The notes under the pieces were generated by a model that worked only from the letters and a program-made list of their open reading frames with translations, ran no database searches and was not told the origin of the DNA. Of a stretch of DNA of 25,379 nt, positions 1,213-7,482 are shown piece by piece. Source of the DNA: a virus; IMG/VR virus record IMGVR_UViG_3300027754_000400, positions 1 through 25,379 of that record; one strand, written 5' to 3'. The translations under genes were made by a program, and so were the position numbers. Numbering within the stretch: the first letter of the stretch is position 1; every line of letters starts with the position of its first letter.

Positions 1213-1241
1213 TTGATGTTAGCAATAATTTTATATATTTG
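1213..1241 (+). promoter_or_regulatory. Bacteroidota-type promoter for the primase-helicase gene
   Basis: TATATTTG at 1234-1241 matches the Bacteroidota -7 box TAnnTTTG. A TTG at 1213-1215 sits at about the right distance for the -33 element. Transcription would start near 1246-1248, exactly where the structured leader begins, leaving a 5' UTR of about 100 nt. It lies 50 bases beyond the last TGTWACA repeat, so a protein bound to that array could regulate it. Confidence 0.65.
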
Positions 1242-1247
1242 CATCAG

Positions 1248-1347
1248 AATTAGTAGGGGAATTACTAATTTAATAAAAAAACATTTAAGCCACTGCATCA
1301 GCATTTATTCCCCAAATGCTTTTGTATGTGGCTTTACTATTTAAACT
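1248..1347 (+). promoter_or_regulatory. Structured 5' leader with two kissing-loop hairpins
   Basis: Hairpin 1 has stem AATTAGTA (1248-1255) with TACTAATT (1263-1270) and loop GGGGAAT (1256-1262). Hairpin 2 is longer. Its outer stem is AAGCCAC (1287-1293) with GTGGCTT (1328-1334), its middle pairs are TGCA (1294-1297) with TGTA (1323-1326), and its inner stem is AGCATTT (1300-1306) with AAATGCT (1314-1320). Its loop is ATTCCCC (1307-1313). The two 7-nt loops are exact reverse complements and the complementarity stops at the loop boundaries, which predicts a 7-bp kissing interaction. G- and C-runs like these are rare in this A/T-rich sequence. The leader ends at the primase ATG, so it probably controls translation of that gene. 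I do not recognise it as a known riboswitch class. Confidence 0.65.
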
Positions 1348-1351
1348 ATGA
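1316..1351 (+). CDS. Possible 11-codon leader peptide coupled to the primase gene
   Basis: ATG at 1316 opens a frame reading MLLYVALLFKL that stops at TGA 1349-1351, overlapping the primase start codon as ATGA. Its start codon lies in the 3' arm of the inner stem of hairpin 2, so its translation would melt that hairpin. ATGA coupling is used repeatedly by genes in this window. A frame this short can arise by chance, so only its placement makes it worth recording. Confidence 0.3.
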   Translation: MLLYVALLFKL

Positions 1352-3573
1352 TAAGTAAAGAATATTTAAAAAAGTTGGTAAGCGTAGGTTACTCAATAAT
1401 TCCAGTAGATGATAACAAGAAGCCTATTGGAGAATGGAAGCAATACCAAACTAATGCAAGGGCAATTACTGATATAGACAGTTTACATTCGCCTAAATAT
1501 GGATTGCTAACTGGATACAATGGACTTGAAGTAATTGATGTAGATTTAAAAGTATTTGATACTTTGCAAGAGCAGACTAACTTTTGGAATGAATATCTGT
1601 CATTCTTGAAGGATAATATAGATGATTTTGAAAATAAGTTTGTTATCTATAAAACTATTAATAAAGGTTACCATATACTTTACAGATGCAGCAATGTAAA
1701 AAAGAATAGTAAAATAGCTAAGTTAAAAGGACATGCAGGTGCTGTAATTGAAAGTAGAGGATTAGGTGGCATGGTTGTATTATACGAAAATAAGATTAGT
1801 AAATTAGCTTATTCAGAAATACAAACTATTACCGACATGGATGCGGAGTGCATCTGGTCCATTAGTAAATCTTATAATTATGTTGAGAATATAGAAGTTG
1901 AAAAGCACCAAGTTAAAGAATATCAAGATAGCGCAATTACTCCATGGGCGGATTATAACGCTAAGGTAAGTATCTTTGATATAGTGCAAGATGAGTTTAA
2001 GATAGTTAGGAACTTATCAAATAGGTACGAGATACTTAGAAATGGTGCAAAATCTGCAACGAGTGGGAGCATATTTAAAAATAGCGGATGTATGTACTTA
2101 TTTAGCACTGGCACTAATTACCCAGCAGAAAAGTTAATCACTCCTTTCATAGCATACTCCATCAAATACCATAATGGCAATTATAAGAATGCAGCAGGGC
2201 AATTATACAAAGATGGCTATGGTAGTAGATCCATCCCAAAGATAAAAGAAGCAGAGCCTAAAGAAAAGATTATAATAAATGAGAATGATTTAAACTTTCC
2301 TTTGGATATTTTTCCAAAAGAAATCCAAGATTTTATAAACGAAAGTGAAGTAACACTTGGATTAGTGCCAGACTACATGGGATGCAGTTTATTATGGTTA
2401 ATTAGCCTATCAATAGGGCAAAGTTTGCACATCAAAATAAAAAATGGATATACACAGCCAGCAGTTATTTGGATTAGCTTAGTTGGTAAGGCAGGTATTG
2501 GTAAAACGCCATCCATTAACCACATTATCAACCCACTAAAGAAGCTAAACAATAAAGAAATAAAAAACTACATAGAAAAGAATAAACAGCATAAGGAATA
2601 TGAAAGTTTAACTAAAGCTGAAAAGAACAATAGCCTGGAGATACCAAAGCCAAGTAAGACGCAATTCATAGTAGATGATATTACACTAGAGGCATTAGTT
2701 GGATTGCATGAAGATAATAAGCATTCAATTGGAGTTTTTAAAGATGAATTAGCAGGGTGGTATATGGACATGAATAAGTATAGGGAAGGTTCAGACTTGC
2801 AATTTTGGTTAAGTAGTTGGGGTGGTGAAAGCTATACTTTGAATAGAAAGATGGCAGAAAGTAGTTTTTTGGATAAAACATTTATACCTATACTTGGCGG
2901 AATACAACCAGCCGTATTAAATACACTTTATACCGATGAAAAAAAGGATAATGGGTTTATAGATAGGATGCTATTGTGCTATCCAGATTTGCATGTGCCA
3001 AAGTATAATAGAAACGAAATTAGAGAAGATAAATTAAAGTGGTTCAGTGATATTATTTGTGGGTTATATAGCGAGTTTAAGAATAAGATTATAGAGTATT
3101 TTCCAGATGCTAATGTGAAGCCTAAATTAGCCACAATGGATGCAAAAGCCTTTGATGAATATGTAAGAATATACGATAGCTATGTGGATATACAGAATGG
3201 CGATAATGAGAATGAGTACATGAAAAGCATGTATCCCAAGCAAAAAAATTACCTACCTAGATTTGCGCTATTAATTCATGTATTCAATTCAATGTTTAAT
3301 GATGATAATTTGGAAGTTATTACTAAAGATAGCATGATTAAGGCTGAAAAACTAAGTAAGTATTTTATTGCACATGCTAAAAAGATAAAGGTAAATAGCA
3401 CATCTATAAATGATATGAAAGGCACAATTAATTCTGCAAAAAAGAAAAGCACCAAAGAAAAGTTTAGCGAAATTTACAAGATGGATAATAATATAAATGT
3501 TGGAGAAATAGCAGAATTATTAGGTGTAAGCAGACAAACAATTTACAGATTTAAAATCGAATTAGAAAATTAA
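1348..3573 (+). CDS. Primase-helicase: PrimPol (AEP) plus DUF3987 ATPase
   Basis: A 741-residue protein predicted to prime and unwind DNA at the phage replication fork. Residues about 1-190 carry archaeo-eukaryotic primase/PrimPol motifs: DVD at 64-66 for metal binding, the KGYH element at 106-109, and an ESRG element at 135-138. Residues about 310-640 match the DUF3987 helicase-like ATPase: Walker A GKAGIGKT at 380-387, Walker B-like VFKDE ending at 467, and GFIDR ending at 540 as a possible arginine finger. The C-terminus (about 712-738) is a helix-turn-helix reading VGEIAELLGVSRQTIYRFK, which could bind the origin. It is preceded by its own promoter, a structured leader and the TGTWACA array. 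Length and domain order match phage and plasmid primase-helicases. The start is the first ATG after the leader. Confidence 0.9.
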   Translation: MISKEYLKKLVSVGYSIIPVDDNKKPIGEWKQYQTNARAITDIDSLHSPKYGLLTGYNGLEVIDVDLKVFDTLQEQTNFWNEYLSFLKDNIDDFENKFVIYKTINKGYHILYRCSNVKKNSKIAKLKGHAGAVIESRGLGGMVVLYENKISKLAYSEIQTITDMDAECIWSISKSYNYVENIEVEKHQVKEYQDSAITPWADYNAKVSIFDIVQDEFKIVRNLSNRYEILRNGAKSATSGSIFKNSGCMYLFSTGTNYPAEKLITPFIAYSIKYHNGNYKNAAGQLYKDGYGSRSIPKIKEAEPKEKIIINENDLNFPLDIFPKEIQDFINESEVTLGLVPDYMGCSLLWLISLSIGQSLHIKIKNGYTQPAVIWISLVGKAGIGKTPSINHIINPLKKLNNKEIKNYIEKNKQHKEYESLTKAEKNNSLEIPKPSKTQFIVDDITLEALVGLHEDNKHSIGVFKDELAGWYMDMNKYREGSDLQFWLSSWGGESYTLNRKMAESSFLDKTFIPILGGIQPAVLNTLYTDEKKDNGFIDRMLLCYPDLHVPKYNRNEIREDKLKWFSDIICGLYSEFKNKIIEYFPDANVKPKLATMDAKAFDEYVRIYDSYVDIQNGDNENEYMKSMYPKQKNYLPRFALLIHVFNSMFNDDNLEVITKDSMIKAEKLSKYFIAHAKKIKVNSTSINDMKGTINSAKKKSTKEKFSEIYKMDNNINVGEIAELLGVSRQTIYRFKIELEN

Positions 3574-3579
3574 AAAAAT

Positions 3580-3978
3580 ATGAAACAGATAAATTTATTT
3601 GGTCAAGAATTTGACCCTAGCAAAGATGAAAAAAAATATTCATCTAAAATTGAAGCTCCTATTTATGAGCCAAAAAATAAAAAGCCTCATATAATGGAAT
3701 TAGTAGATAAAACTAAAACACATAGGCTAATAAGAGAAATTGATAATTCAAGTTTATCTTATGAAGAAAAAACATTTTTAATAGATGCAGCTAAAAGACA
3801 TAATGTATTTAATTATGAAAATATAGCTGATTATTATGCGCATAGTTCACCTGAAATGCAACATTTAATGGAGAGAAGTGGATTAGTAATAATTGACTTT
3901 GAAAAGGCAATAGAATATGGATATGTAAAACTTTGTAATGAAATTAAAAAACAATATTTAGAAGAATATGGAGAATAA
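3580..3978 (+). CDS. Conserved phage protein that accompanies TAGT glycosyltransferases
   Basis: Encodes 132 residues. After an NLFGQEFDP opening and a Lys-rich linker comes a conserved-looking region: IYEPKNKKPHIMELVDKTKT, then RLIREID, FLIDAAKRHNVFNYENIADY, and finally LVIIDFEKAIEYGYVKL. From memory, this type of sequence is often encoded immediately upstream of a TET-associated-type glycosyltransferase in phages, as here, where the two genes overlap by 11 bases. I know no established biochemical function. It may be an accessory factor for DNA base modification, or a regulator or DNA-binding partner. It has no signal peptide or membrane segment. This gene and the next appear more A/T-rich in codon choice than the primase-helicase. 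The family link is recalled rather than searched. Confidence 0.7.
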   Translation: MKQINLFGQEFDPSKDEKKYSSKIEAPIYEPKNKKPHIMELVDKTKTHRLIREIDNSSLSYEEKTFLIDAAKRHNVFNYENIADYYAHSSPEMQHLMERSGLVIIDFEKAIEYGYVKLCNEIKKQYLEEYGE

Positions 3979-4813
3979 AGATTTTGCAGTATTTATAATG
4001 GTACATGATAGGCCAGAAAACTGCTATACATATAAAACTTTAAAAAGATGTGGATATACTGGAGATATATTTTTAGTTATTGATAATGATAGTAAGTCAT
4101 TAGAACAATATAAAAATATTTATGGGAATGCTATAATTACATTTGATAAAAAATCAATTATTAATAAATATGATTCAGGAGATAATAGTGGCGATTTGAG
4201 AAGTACAATGTACAAAGCAAATGAAATATTTAATATAGCTAAAGATATTGGAAAAAAATATTTTTGCATAATGTGTGATGATTATTATTGCCTAAGTTAT
4301 AGATATGATACAGGTTCAAGGGTGATTAAAAATAGATTAGATTTTGTGTTTGATAAAATAGTTGATTTCTACAAATCAACAAATATTAAAACAATAGCAT
4401 TTTCTCAAGGTGGTGACCACATTGGTGGTTTTAATGGTAAATTTAGAAGAAAAGCAATGAATTCTTTTTTTTGCTCAACGGATAGAACATTTGAGTTTAT
4501 GGGTAGATTAAATGAAGATGTTACTACTTATGTTAATTTAGGTGCTAAAGGGCAAATATTTTGCACATTCCCATTTATTCAATTAGACCAAAAAGATACT
4601 CAAGTAACAGGACTAGGATTATCTGATACTTATATAAAAACAGGGACTTATGTAAAAGCATTTTTTTCAGTTATGTACAATCCATCAAGTGTTAAAATTA
4701 GTATGATGAATGCTAATAACCCAAGATTACATCATTCAATAAAATGGGTAAATACAGTTCCAATGATAATAGACCAAAAATATAAAAAATGCAAATTAGA
4801 ACAAATCAATTAA
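3968..4813 (+). CDS. TET-associated-type glycosyltransferase (TAGT), DNA base modification
   Basis: A 281-residue protein resembling the TAGT glycosyltransferase family, named for linkage to TET/JBP hydroxylases in phages and proposed to add sugar to hydroxylated bases in DNA. Visible hallmarks are HDRPENCYTYKTLKRCGYTG near the N-terminus, FLVIDN at 35-40, the metal/sugar-nucleotide motif CDDYY at 103-107 (equivalent to DxD of GT-A folds), GGDHIGG at 148-154, and MNSFFCSTDRTFEFMGRLNE followed by DVTTYVNLG. Near the C-terminus come a GTYVKAFFSVM segment and the HH of RLHHSIKW. Nothing looks truncated. It overlaps the preceding gene by 11 bases and the helicase gene by 25. A C5-cytosine methyltransferase lies 1.4 kb downstream, but no TET/JBP or hydroxymethylase is visible in this window. 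The acceptor base is therefore unknown. Confidence 0.75.
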   Translation: MENKDFAVFIMVHDRPENCYTYKTLKRCGYTGDIFLVIDNDSKSLEQYKNIYGNAIITFDKKSIINKYDSGDNSGDLRSTMYKANEIFNIAKDIGKKYFCIMCDDYYCLSYRYDTGSRVIKNRLDFVFDKIVDFYKSTNIKTIAFSQGGDHIGGFNGKFRRKAMNSFFCSTDRTFEFMGRLNEDVTTYVNLGAKGQIFCTFPFIQLDQKDTQVTGLGLSDTYIKTGTYVKAFFSVMYNPSSVKISMMNANNPRLHHSIKWVNTVPMIIDQKYKKCKLEQIN

Positions 4814-6012: not shown

Positions 6013-6238
6013 AATAATCAAGTTAATGGAGTCTAAAGATTATTATGTAATAAAATTATCAAAGACAAATAAGCAGGGCATTCCTGATTTGCTTTGCCTA
6101 AAAAAAGATGAAGTACCGTTTTTTATTGAGGTTAAAACCGATAACGGAGTAGTAAGTGCATTGCAATTATTTAGGCAAAAAGAATTAAAAGAATTAGGCT
6201 TTAAAAGTATAATAGTAAAAAACATTTTAGAGATATGA
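5987..6238 (+). CDS. VRR-NUC domain nuclease
   Basis: An 83-residue single-domain protein. The PD-(D/E)xK-type active site is visible as GIPD (31-34), FFIEVK (45-50) with E48 and K50, and SALQ (57-60) with Q60; the N-terminal helix carries EQQIQ. This is the minimal VRR-NUC fold found alone in many phages, and standalone versions have been reported to cut branched DNA such as Holliday junctions. It starts 26 bases inside the upstream SNF2-like helicase gene and its stop overlaps the methyltransferase start as ATGA, so the three are coupled. The likely job is resolving branched DNA during replication or before packaging, together with the helicase. Confidence is high. Confidence 0.88.
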   Translation: MKEQQIQSKIIKLMESKDYYVIKLSKTNKQGIPDLLCLKKDEVPFFIEVKTDNGVVSALQLFRQKELKELGFKSIIVKNILEI

Positions 6239-7482
6239 ATATATTAAGTTTATTTGACGGAATGTCTTGCGGTCAGCAAGCACTTGAAAGAGCAGGAATA
6301 AAAGTAGATAATTACTTTGCATCTGAAATTGATAAATATGCCATCCAAGTTACAATGGCTAACTATCCTAATACAAAACAATTGGGTAGTGTTGTTGATG
6401 TTGATGGATATAAACTACCAAAGATTGATATTCTTATAGGTGGTTCACCTTGTCAATCGTTTAGCTTTGCTGGTAAGAGAAAAGGAATGAGTACCAAGTG
6501 CGAAACTGAGATTTTAACTCTTGAACATTACTTACAATTAAAGTCTGAAGGTTATGAATTTGAAGGTCAATCTTATTTATTTTGGGAATTTATGAGATTA
6601 CTAAATGAATGCAAACCAACTTACTTTCTCTTAGAAAATGTTGAAATGGGCGAAAAGTGGGAAAAGGTATTAAGCAAAGCTATTGGTGTAAATGGAATAC
6701 ACATTAATTCTGCTTTGCTATCAGCTCAAAACAGAAGACGCATTTACTGGACTAACATCGGAATGCAACCCTCAGGATTGTTTGGAAATTTGGAAAGCAT
6801 TATAAAACAGCCAAAAGATAAAGGTATTTTGCTTCGCGATGTGTTAGAAAATGAAGTTGATGAAAAGTATTTTTTAAGTGAACAAAGAATTCAAACAATT
6901 CTTAAAAGTGAAAGAAGTGTGCCTTATGTAAATGAAGAAACAAACAAATTTAATTGTTTAATTGCTGGTTACAATAAAATACCAACGGATGGACAATATA
7001 TAGTCCACAACACAATGCCAAGAAGTGGAAACCCTAAGAAGGGTGGAACTGGACATTTAAGCAGAAATGATGGTAAGACTTATTGCCTTGATACAGGAAA
7101 TACTAATGCGGTTGAAATAGTTGCAATGAGAGGAAGAGGAGAAAAAGGCAATATTGAGCAACAATTTGAAACAAATGGAACGAATAAAAGCAACTCATTA
7201 ACTACTGTAACAAAAGATAATTTGGTGTTTAATTATAGACAAGATGCACCAAATGATATAAATGGTAAAAAGGATTGTTTAAGGGCAAATGCTGGCGGTG
7301 TTTTAAAAGGTGTTGGAATTATTGAAAATTCACGAATAAGAAGATTAACACCAACGGAATGCGAACGATTGCAGACAGTTGCAGACAATTACACGAACCA
7401 CGTTTCAGATACTCAAAGATATAAGATGTTAGGTAATGGATGGACAGTTGATGTTATTGCACATATATTTTCATACATATAA
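6235..7482 (+). CDS. DNA (cytosine-5) methyltransferase
   Basis: A 415-residue Dcm-type enzyme transferring methyl from S-adenosylmethionine to C5 of cytosine. Motif I is LSLFDGMSCG near the N-terminus (SAM binding). Motif IV is GGSPCQSFSFAG with catalytic C73, motif VI is FLLENVEMG with E134 and N135, and motif VIII is QNRRR (165-169). Motif IX appears as RRLTPTECERLQ and motif X as RYKMLGNGWTVDV near the end. All catalytic motifs are intact. The variable target-recognition region is about 170-360, so the recognition sequence cannot be read. It overlaps the VRR-NUC stop by four bases. No cognate restriction endonuclease was recognised, so this is probably a self-protecting phage orphan methyltransferase, or the first step toward a larger cytosine modification involving the TAGT enzyme. 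Confidence 0.93.
   Translation: MNILSLFDGMSCGQQALERAGIKVDNYFASEIDKYAIQVTMANYPNTKQLGSVVDVDGYKLPKIDILIGGSPCQSFSFAGKRKGMSTKCETEILTLEHYLQLKSEGYEFEGQSYLFWEFMRLLNECKPTYFLLENVEMGEKWEKVLSKAIGVNGIHINSALLSAQNRRRIYWTNIGMQPSGLFGNLESIIKQPKDKGILLRDVLENEVDEKYFLSEQRIQTILKSERSVPYVNEETNKFNCLIAGYNKIPTDGQYIVHNTMPRSGNPKKGGTGHLSRNDGKTYCLDTGNTNAVEIVAMRGRGEKGNIEQQFETNGTNKSNSLTTVTKDNLVFNYRQDAPNDINGKKDCLRANAGGVLKGVGIIENSRIRRLTPTECERLQTVADNYTNHVSDTQRYKMLGNGWTVDVIAHIFSYI

Follow-up and report, generated by a model that had tools for sequence, protein, structure and literature searches.

The window analysed here, a 25,379-base virus record, has a gene for a PrimPol-DUF3987 primase-helicase with phage packaging, portal and tail genes downstream. 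The leader of the primase-helicase gene contains two hairpins whose 7-nt loops are exact complements of each other; its features are as follows.

1213..1215, plus strand: -33-like TTG of the promoter, read from the sequence and enriched at the same spacing in relatives
1234..1241, plus strand: Bacteroidota -7 promoter box TATATTTG (TAnnTTTG), read from the sequence; the box is the anchor in all relatives
1247..1271, plus strand: hairpin 1, from the fold, starting about 5 nt past the TTTG, near the expected transcript start
1248-1255 and 1263-1270, plus strand: stem arms of hairpin 1, AATTAGTA and TACTAATT, read from the sequence
1256..1262, plus strand: putative kissing loop 1, GGGGAAT, exact complement of 1307-1313
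1278..1286, plus strand: linker motif AAAACATTT (family consensus AARAYATTW)
1287..1334, plus strand: hairpin 2, from the fold, its inner stem bearing loop 2; terminator-like in relatives, where a U-tract follows
1307..1313, plus strand: putative kissing loop 2, ATTCCCC, exact complement of 1256-1262
1333..1342, plus strand: degenerate U-tract TTTACTATTT after hairpin 2, read from the sequence, its first two bases overlapping the stem end
1348..3573, plus strand: PrimPol-DUF3987 primase-helicase gene downstream (Pfam PF09250 and PF13148; PHROG helicase/primase)

The outer stem of hairpin 2 is formed by AAGCCAC (1287-1293) and GTGGCTT (1328-1334), its inner stem by AGCATTT and AAATGCT, and two G-U pairs are added to hairpin 1 in the minimum-energy fold. 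Both hairpins are contained in the minimum-energy and the centroid fold (-28.5 kcal/mol, z = -3.7), an energy matched by 0 of 200 shuffles. A scan of the window for two hairpins of at least 6 bp, with exactly complementary 7-nt loops and at most 120 nt apart, returned this pair only, and 0 of 300 dinucleotide-preserving shuffles contained one. Sequence, folds and shuffles thus bear out the hairpins and complementary loops reported in a preliminary description of this DNA; its placement of the element, from the transcript start to just before the ATG, likewise holds in the window, and relatives have the same layout. The U-tract TTTACTATTT is weaker than the tracts of relatives and was not called by a generic terminator scan.

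Two further features of the window were observed. Just 5' of the promoter, positions 977-1190 are dense in direct and inverted copies of TGTTACA/TGTAACA and of ATTGATWATCAAT, a cluster resembling iterons, a replication origin or an operator cluster. A TET-associated glycosyltransferase (TAGT, PF20691) is encoded near a C-5 cytosine methylase (3968-4813 and 6235-7482), which suggests DNA hypermodification.

Relatives of the leader and complementarity of their loops

With the window primase as query, 20 related viral contigs were retrieved, among which only L002 has a leader nearly the same as that of the window. Several others follow the same plan in unrelated sequence and with new complementary loops, including L013 (GTGGGA/TCCCAC), L016 (ATGGTAC/GTACCAT), L015 (CATCCTAC/GTAGGATG) and L003 (GTGATGGT/ACCATCAC). 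In the layout common to these relatives, a Bacteroidota promoter comes first, with hairpin 1 where transcription should begin; an A-rich linker leads on to hairpin 2 with its U-tract, and the ATG comes last. Among the primase-fetched relatives, most have a T run between hairpin 2 and the ATG. Metagenomic phage contigs and named phages (FCL-2, P12002L and P2559S) together yielded 59 distinct leaders with 48 loop codes, to which Parabacteroides phage PD691P3 adds a further case.

Complementarity was also assessed in leaders collected blindly, by a filter that made no reference to loop pairing (TAnnTTTG, a hairpin with a U-tract, and an ORF of at least 35 codons). Applied to 200 loci, this filter gave 79 distinct leaders, of which 47 have at least 7 nt of complementarity between the leader and the terminator loop, vs. 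6.2 expected when loops are swapped between leaders; at least 8 nt were found in 19 of the 79, vs. 1.9 with swapped loops. Judged by eye, many of the blind-filter leaders lacking complementarity are coding-sequence hairpins. For an independent second set, a helicase-methylase protein was the only query, and 69 distinct upstream regions were obtained: a promoter and a terminator precede the ATG in 12, all of which have at least 6 nt of complementarity (about 1 expected), two of these (L364 and L365) being ambiguous in their pairing segments and three (L332-L334) near-identical to one another. The remainder consists of 7 regions with a plain promoter and 50 without a promoter close upstream. The loosest scan, accepting any hairpin with a T-rich stretch and a TAnnTTTG upstream (481 candidates), was no richer in complementarity than the swapped-loop control, apparently since coding-sequence hairpins make up most of its matches; many of these drop out once an ORF has to lie just downstream and the U-tract has to be a proper one.

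In an anchored comparison of closely related leaders, which took leaders already selected for pairing, the differences are compensatory only. An A:T pair is replaced by C:G in L016/L158, and T:A by A:T in L157/L152, L172/L155, L137/FCL-2 and L181/L177; two pairs have changed in L170/L128, three in L030/L094, and five each in L126/L157 and L015/L186. Pairing in the copies was not required in a BLAST test, which returned 73 distinct homologous copies spanning both loops, many of them near-identical to the query; 72 of the 73 are fully complementary as scored, and the last (L120 at 4740, GCATCAC/GTGATGC) is complementary at 7 of 7 positions once an alignment gap is corrected. These two comparisons were used instead of a pairwise alignment of all leaders, in which apparently broken pairs proved to be loop misalignments. 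A homologous leader in which one loop had changed without the other was sought, and did not occur. The proposal that loop-loop complementarity is the signal has therefore gained strong support from its retention in 73 of 73 distinct homologous copies and from the compensatory changes, and selection on this complementarity, with pairing maintained and loop sequence free, is strongly supported by the comparative evidence.

Anatomy and distribution of the leader family

Across the 59 curated leaders, the median length, measured from the promoter box through the terminator stem, is 100 nt (interquartile range 96-102). Hairpin 1 begins 5 nt past the TTTG (median), near the expected transcript start. 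The linker between the hairpins has a median of 17 nt, and a motif search in the 59 linkers found the A-rich AARAYATTW in it, with an information content of 6.1 bits (shuffles, 4.0 bits). A TTG at promoter spacing is present in 27 of 58 leaders, vs. 5 of 58 in an interval 30 nt further upstream; the promoter context of the leaders is genuine. Loop pairing extends over 6-9 nt, with a GC content of 55% vs. 29% in the leader and a median duplex energy of -9.2 kcal/mol, while hairpin 2 has a median energy of -18.6 kcal/mol. Both loops lie on the same strand within one leader in every member. On sequence evidence, the window hairpins belong to this class of phage leader RNAs, which act in cis and span about 100 nt.

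T occupies positions 1-4 after the hairpin 2 stem in 85-92% of leaders (about 88%), whereas alignment on the ATG gives at most 76% T at any position; the U-tract is therefore anchored to hairpin 2 and not to the ATG, the family scan having required a T-rich stretch but not its exact position. The stem-hairpin and U-tract of an intrinsic terminator are found in the family as a whole, the window copy having a degenerate tract, and hairpin 2 resembles an intrinsic terminator in most members. From the end of its stem to the ATG the median distance is 17 nt (range 6 to 39 nt). An antiterminator helix using a terminator arm was not found, the longest complementarity between leader and arm being mostly 3-5 nt; in the absence of such a competing helix, the element does not resemble a classical switch in which stems exclude one another. 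Roughly estimated from its length, the linker allows kissing and the full terminator stem to exist together in 49 of the 59 leaders, and is marginal in 10.

Some structural variants recur. A sub-family of hairpin 2 (L015 2718-2815, L186 1980-2082 and L323) has an internal loop UGAAA / GUGGAU in common, its stems and codes being different, and other copies of hairpin 2 have GGA/AAA or UGC/AAU as common internal loops. Members with longer linkers (L177, L128, L129, L181, FCL-2 (L199 37475-37582) and L279) seemingly contain a small extra hairpin, the third of the leader, between the other two; in some longer-linker members the base of the terminator extends through the U-tract into pairs of the GAC:GUC type, followed by a second U-run.

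The element is found in several named phages: 5' of a protein partly similar to replication proteins in Flavobacterium phage FCL-2 and its relative FCOV-F54, 5' of a protein annotated as primosomal or replication protein in Polaribacter phages P12002L and P12002S, with 6-nt pairing in Croceibacter phage P2559S, and 5' of a protein partly similar to that of FCL-2 in Parabacteroides distasonis phage PD691P3. The gene 3' of the leader encodes a primase-helicase in 23 of the 59, in a viral set chosen through particular genes, whose counts do not equal frequencies among Bacteroidota phages. Elsewhere the element precedes genes for helicase-methylase, a DUF3127 protein, HTH replication proteins, replication-initiator-like proteins, and small early ORFs, so that the specificity for primase-helicase genes first ascribed to it does not hold. 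Eight contigs carry two elements each, always with different codes; differing codes within one genome, along with constant adjacency to an ORF, point to action in cis. The codes CATCCAC, GTGGAAG and CTACCAC are reused by different phages, which argues against strong selection for code diversity. Some homologous genes, such as the helicase-methylase homologues in L291, L293 and L294, have a plain promoter only, so that the gene can do without the leader; the helicase-methylase homologues offer a natural contrast between genes with and without the element.

Different leader modules are carried by phages whose primases share 95-98% identity with that of the window. L003 (2720-3001), with a window-like primase, has a different code and a 45-aa ORF; L004 (640-775) has no element directly 5' of the primase, and one 5' of the upstream helicase-methylase gene. 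This pattern suggests that leader modules are exchanged by recombination.

Bacteroidota genome sequence totalling 914 kb (398 kb of host chromosomes and 516 kb of DUF3987-gene stretches) gave only two matches, both of which look like coding sequence, and no genuine copy. The same scan gave no convincing element in phages 6H, phi12:1, P12024S and lambda or in the searched parts of phi38:1 and crAss001, nor was a convincing one found at the homologues in Riemerella PT33 and CRP19; the replication protein of PD691P3, used as query in a scan, brought up no relatives.

Possible modes of action and comparison with known systems

For the leader class as a whole, the best explanation is a conditional attenuator, a reading to which we give an even chance, and which is favoured by the anchoring of the U-tract to the hairpin and by the occurrence of one module before a variety of early genes. 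RNA synthesis would start at the TAnnTTTG promoter, and the loop of the 5' hairpin, complementary over 6-9 nt to the apical loop of hairpin 2, would pair with it within the same transcript during synthesis, producing a compact kissing structure that includes the terminator. RNA polymerase would then either stop at the U-tract, releasing an RNA of about 100 nt, or read through into the early gene, the outcome being set by the kissing structure, either by itself or by serving as a recognition site for a factor of phage or host. Kissing would favour either termination or read-through, a direction that the sequence does not fix; pairing alone does not exclude the terminator, since the kissing sequences lie outside the terminator arms. 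We infer that the loops pair in the transcript and affect early-gene expression. The weak U-tract of the window may mean frequent read-through or a diminished role in termination.

The element is best regarded as a general phage leader, probably an attenuator, rather than as primase-specific translational control. A fuller formulation, advanced tentatively, is that an intrinsic terminator is controlled via its loop and not its stem, gating polymerase entry into the early operon, in a widespread, code-neutral class of Bacteroidota-phage RNAs. The preliminary description had placed expression control at this leader and had viewed it as translational; control at the leader is still the probable role, whereas the translational-only view gives way to one in which transcription attenuation is at least as likely, and, given a U-tract anchored to the hairpin 2 stem in relatives, likelier than purely translational control.

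Translational control is nonetheless a serious rival, especially in the window, even if a doubtful one for the class: a kissing pseudoknot just 5' of the start codon would help or hinder ribosome entry, as in the ColIb-P9 repZ leader, with the U-tract serving as a ribosome-friendly single strand. Such a role would suit a hairpin 2 ending a median of 17 nt before the ATG, a primase gene immediately downstream in 23 of 59 leaders, the independence of Bacteroidota from Shine-Dalgarno sites, and a window U-tract that is weak and not called as a terminator; it fits poorly with a U-tract whose position follows the end of the stem and not the ATG, a stem-to-ATG distance varying from 6 to 39 nt, and a hairpin that does not cover the ATG.

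The position of hairpin 1 near the transcript start (about 5 nt after the TTTG) and the occurrence of the element before many different genes would also be expected of a messenger stabiliser, in which the 5' hairpin, locked to hairpin 2, shields early phage mRNAs from 5'-end-dependent decay. We consider this unlikely, as a stabiliser needs neither a U-tract nor a second hairpin with the layout of a terminator, and conservation of the U-tract is left unexplained.

It is quite unlikely that the released RNA of about 100 nt acts in trans, either as a loop-mediated dimer or ring similar to phi29 pRNA, or by letting related phages interfere with one another according to their codes, comparable to plasmid incompatibility or P4 CI immunity. 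Codes do differ between phages, each RNA carries both partners, and code-neutral complementary loops are known from phi29 pRNA; however, in the set found the element always lies directly 5' of an ORF, two elements of one genome have different codes, the same code is reused by different phages, and intramolecular pairing is sterically possible.

A leader RNA that primes replication or marks an origin, following the TGTTACA/TGTAACA repeats in the window, is very unlikely: the repeat cluster at about 977-1190 and the replication genes downstream would agree with it, but no such repeats are apparent in the leaders of most relatives, and several elements per genome precede different early genes. 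Chance or a repeat artefact, which the lack of excess in the loosest scan, dominated by coding-sequence hairpins, might have suggested, is ruled out for practical purposes by the strong excess in both leader sets once an ORF and a U-tract are required, the compensatory changes, the homologous copies, and the 0 of 300 shuffles for the window.

That dozens of unrelated sequences keep the complementarity argues that the element is real, and that early genes of Bacteroidota viruses are probably under a form of control not described before. A full-text literature search of open-access papers found no earlier description of such an element, and Rfam covariance models gave no match at the gathering score in the window or 12 relatives, where sub-threshold matches were to unrelated families only. 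Ordinary RNA searches would miss the covariation signal, as the loops have no conserved sequence and their pairing is a pseudoknot. The observation reaches beyond a single window, being general across many Bacteroidota phage leaders, and concerns early-gene regulation, which is poorly understood in Bacteroidota phages, including those of the gut. If the kissing loop controls the terminator, this would be control of intrinsic termination via a hairpin loop, of which we have encountered no description, and the leaders would be a source of orthogonal parts, the code being free and only pairing mattering. The element is directly testable, since it precedes replication-type genes of the cultured phages FCL-2, P12002L/S, P2559S and PD691P3.

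To our knowledge, in no known system does the loop of a terminator kiss the 5'-most hairpin of its own RNA, although several share individual features with the kissing leaders. The likeness to ColE1 RNA I/RNA II, drawn in the preliminary description, extends to 7-nt loop-loop kissing and no further, as ColE1 uses two separate antisense transcripts that pair intermolecularly, whereas here the two loops lie on the same strand in one transcript in every member. The phi29 packaging RNA, which is not a leader, is a single RNA with two mutually complementary loops that forms an intermolecular ring on the packaging motor; rings of this kind are argued against here by multiple codes per genome and ORF adjacency. 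Its loops, similarly to those of the kissing leaders, keep their complementarity while their sequence varies. PMC12670572 reports a sequence that varies and a structure that is conserved.

Control of an intrinsic terminator by RNA pairing in a rep leader is exemplified by the pT181 attenuator, as referenced in PMC10724649. Exclusive stems were not found in the kissing leaders, unlike in pT181. The pairing partner in pT181 is a separate antisense RNA that works through such stems. In the P4 CI and P1 c4 systems, self-complementary segments in a phage leader 5' of a primase-helicase gene cause premature termination, and a processed RNA with conserved target segments acts in trans; the leaders described here differ in having two hairpin loops within one leader of about 100 nt, and a free code.

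The pseudoknot of ColIb-P9 reportedly forms between two leader structures. This plasmid system is translational, involving a leader peptide and an antisense RNA, and has no terminator at its second hairpin, whereas hairpin 2 of the phage leaders is terminator-like. The pseudoknot of the ColIb-P9 and IncL/M rep leaders is treated as a switch where PMC10724649 cites Asano and Mizobuchi (1998), and loop-loop complementarity in the leader of a replication gene is likewise found here. Finally, the putL and putR RNAs of phage HK022, about 70 nt long and located 3' of an early promoter, consist of two stem-loops and suppress termination in cis; put is positioned at the exit channel of RNA polymerase, the terminators it affects are distant ones, and the two RNAs resemble each other in sequence (PMC9378689). 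The kissing leaders also have two stem-loops near an early phage promoter, but their second hairpin is itself terminator-like, their loops are complementary, and the sequence of those loops is free.
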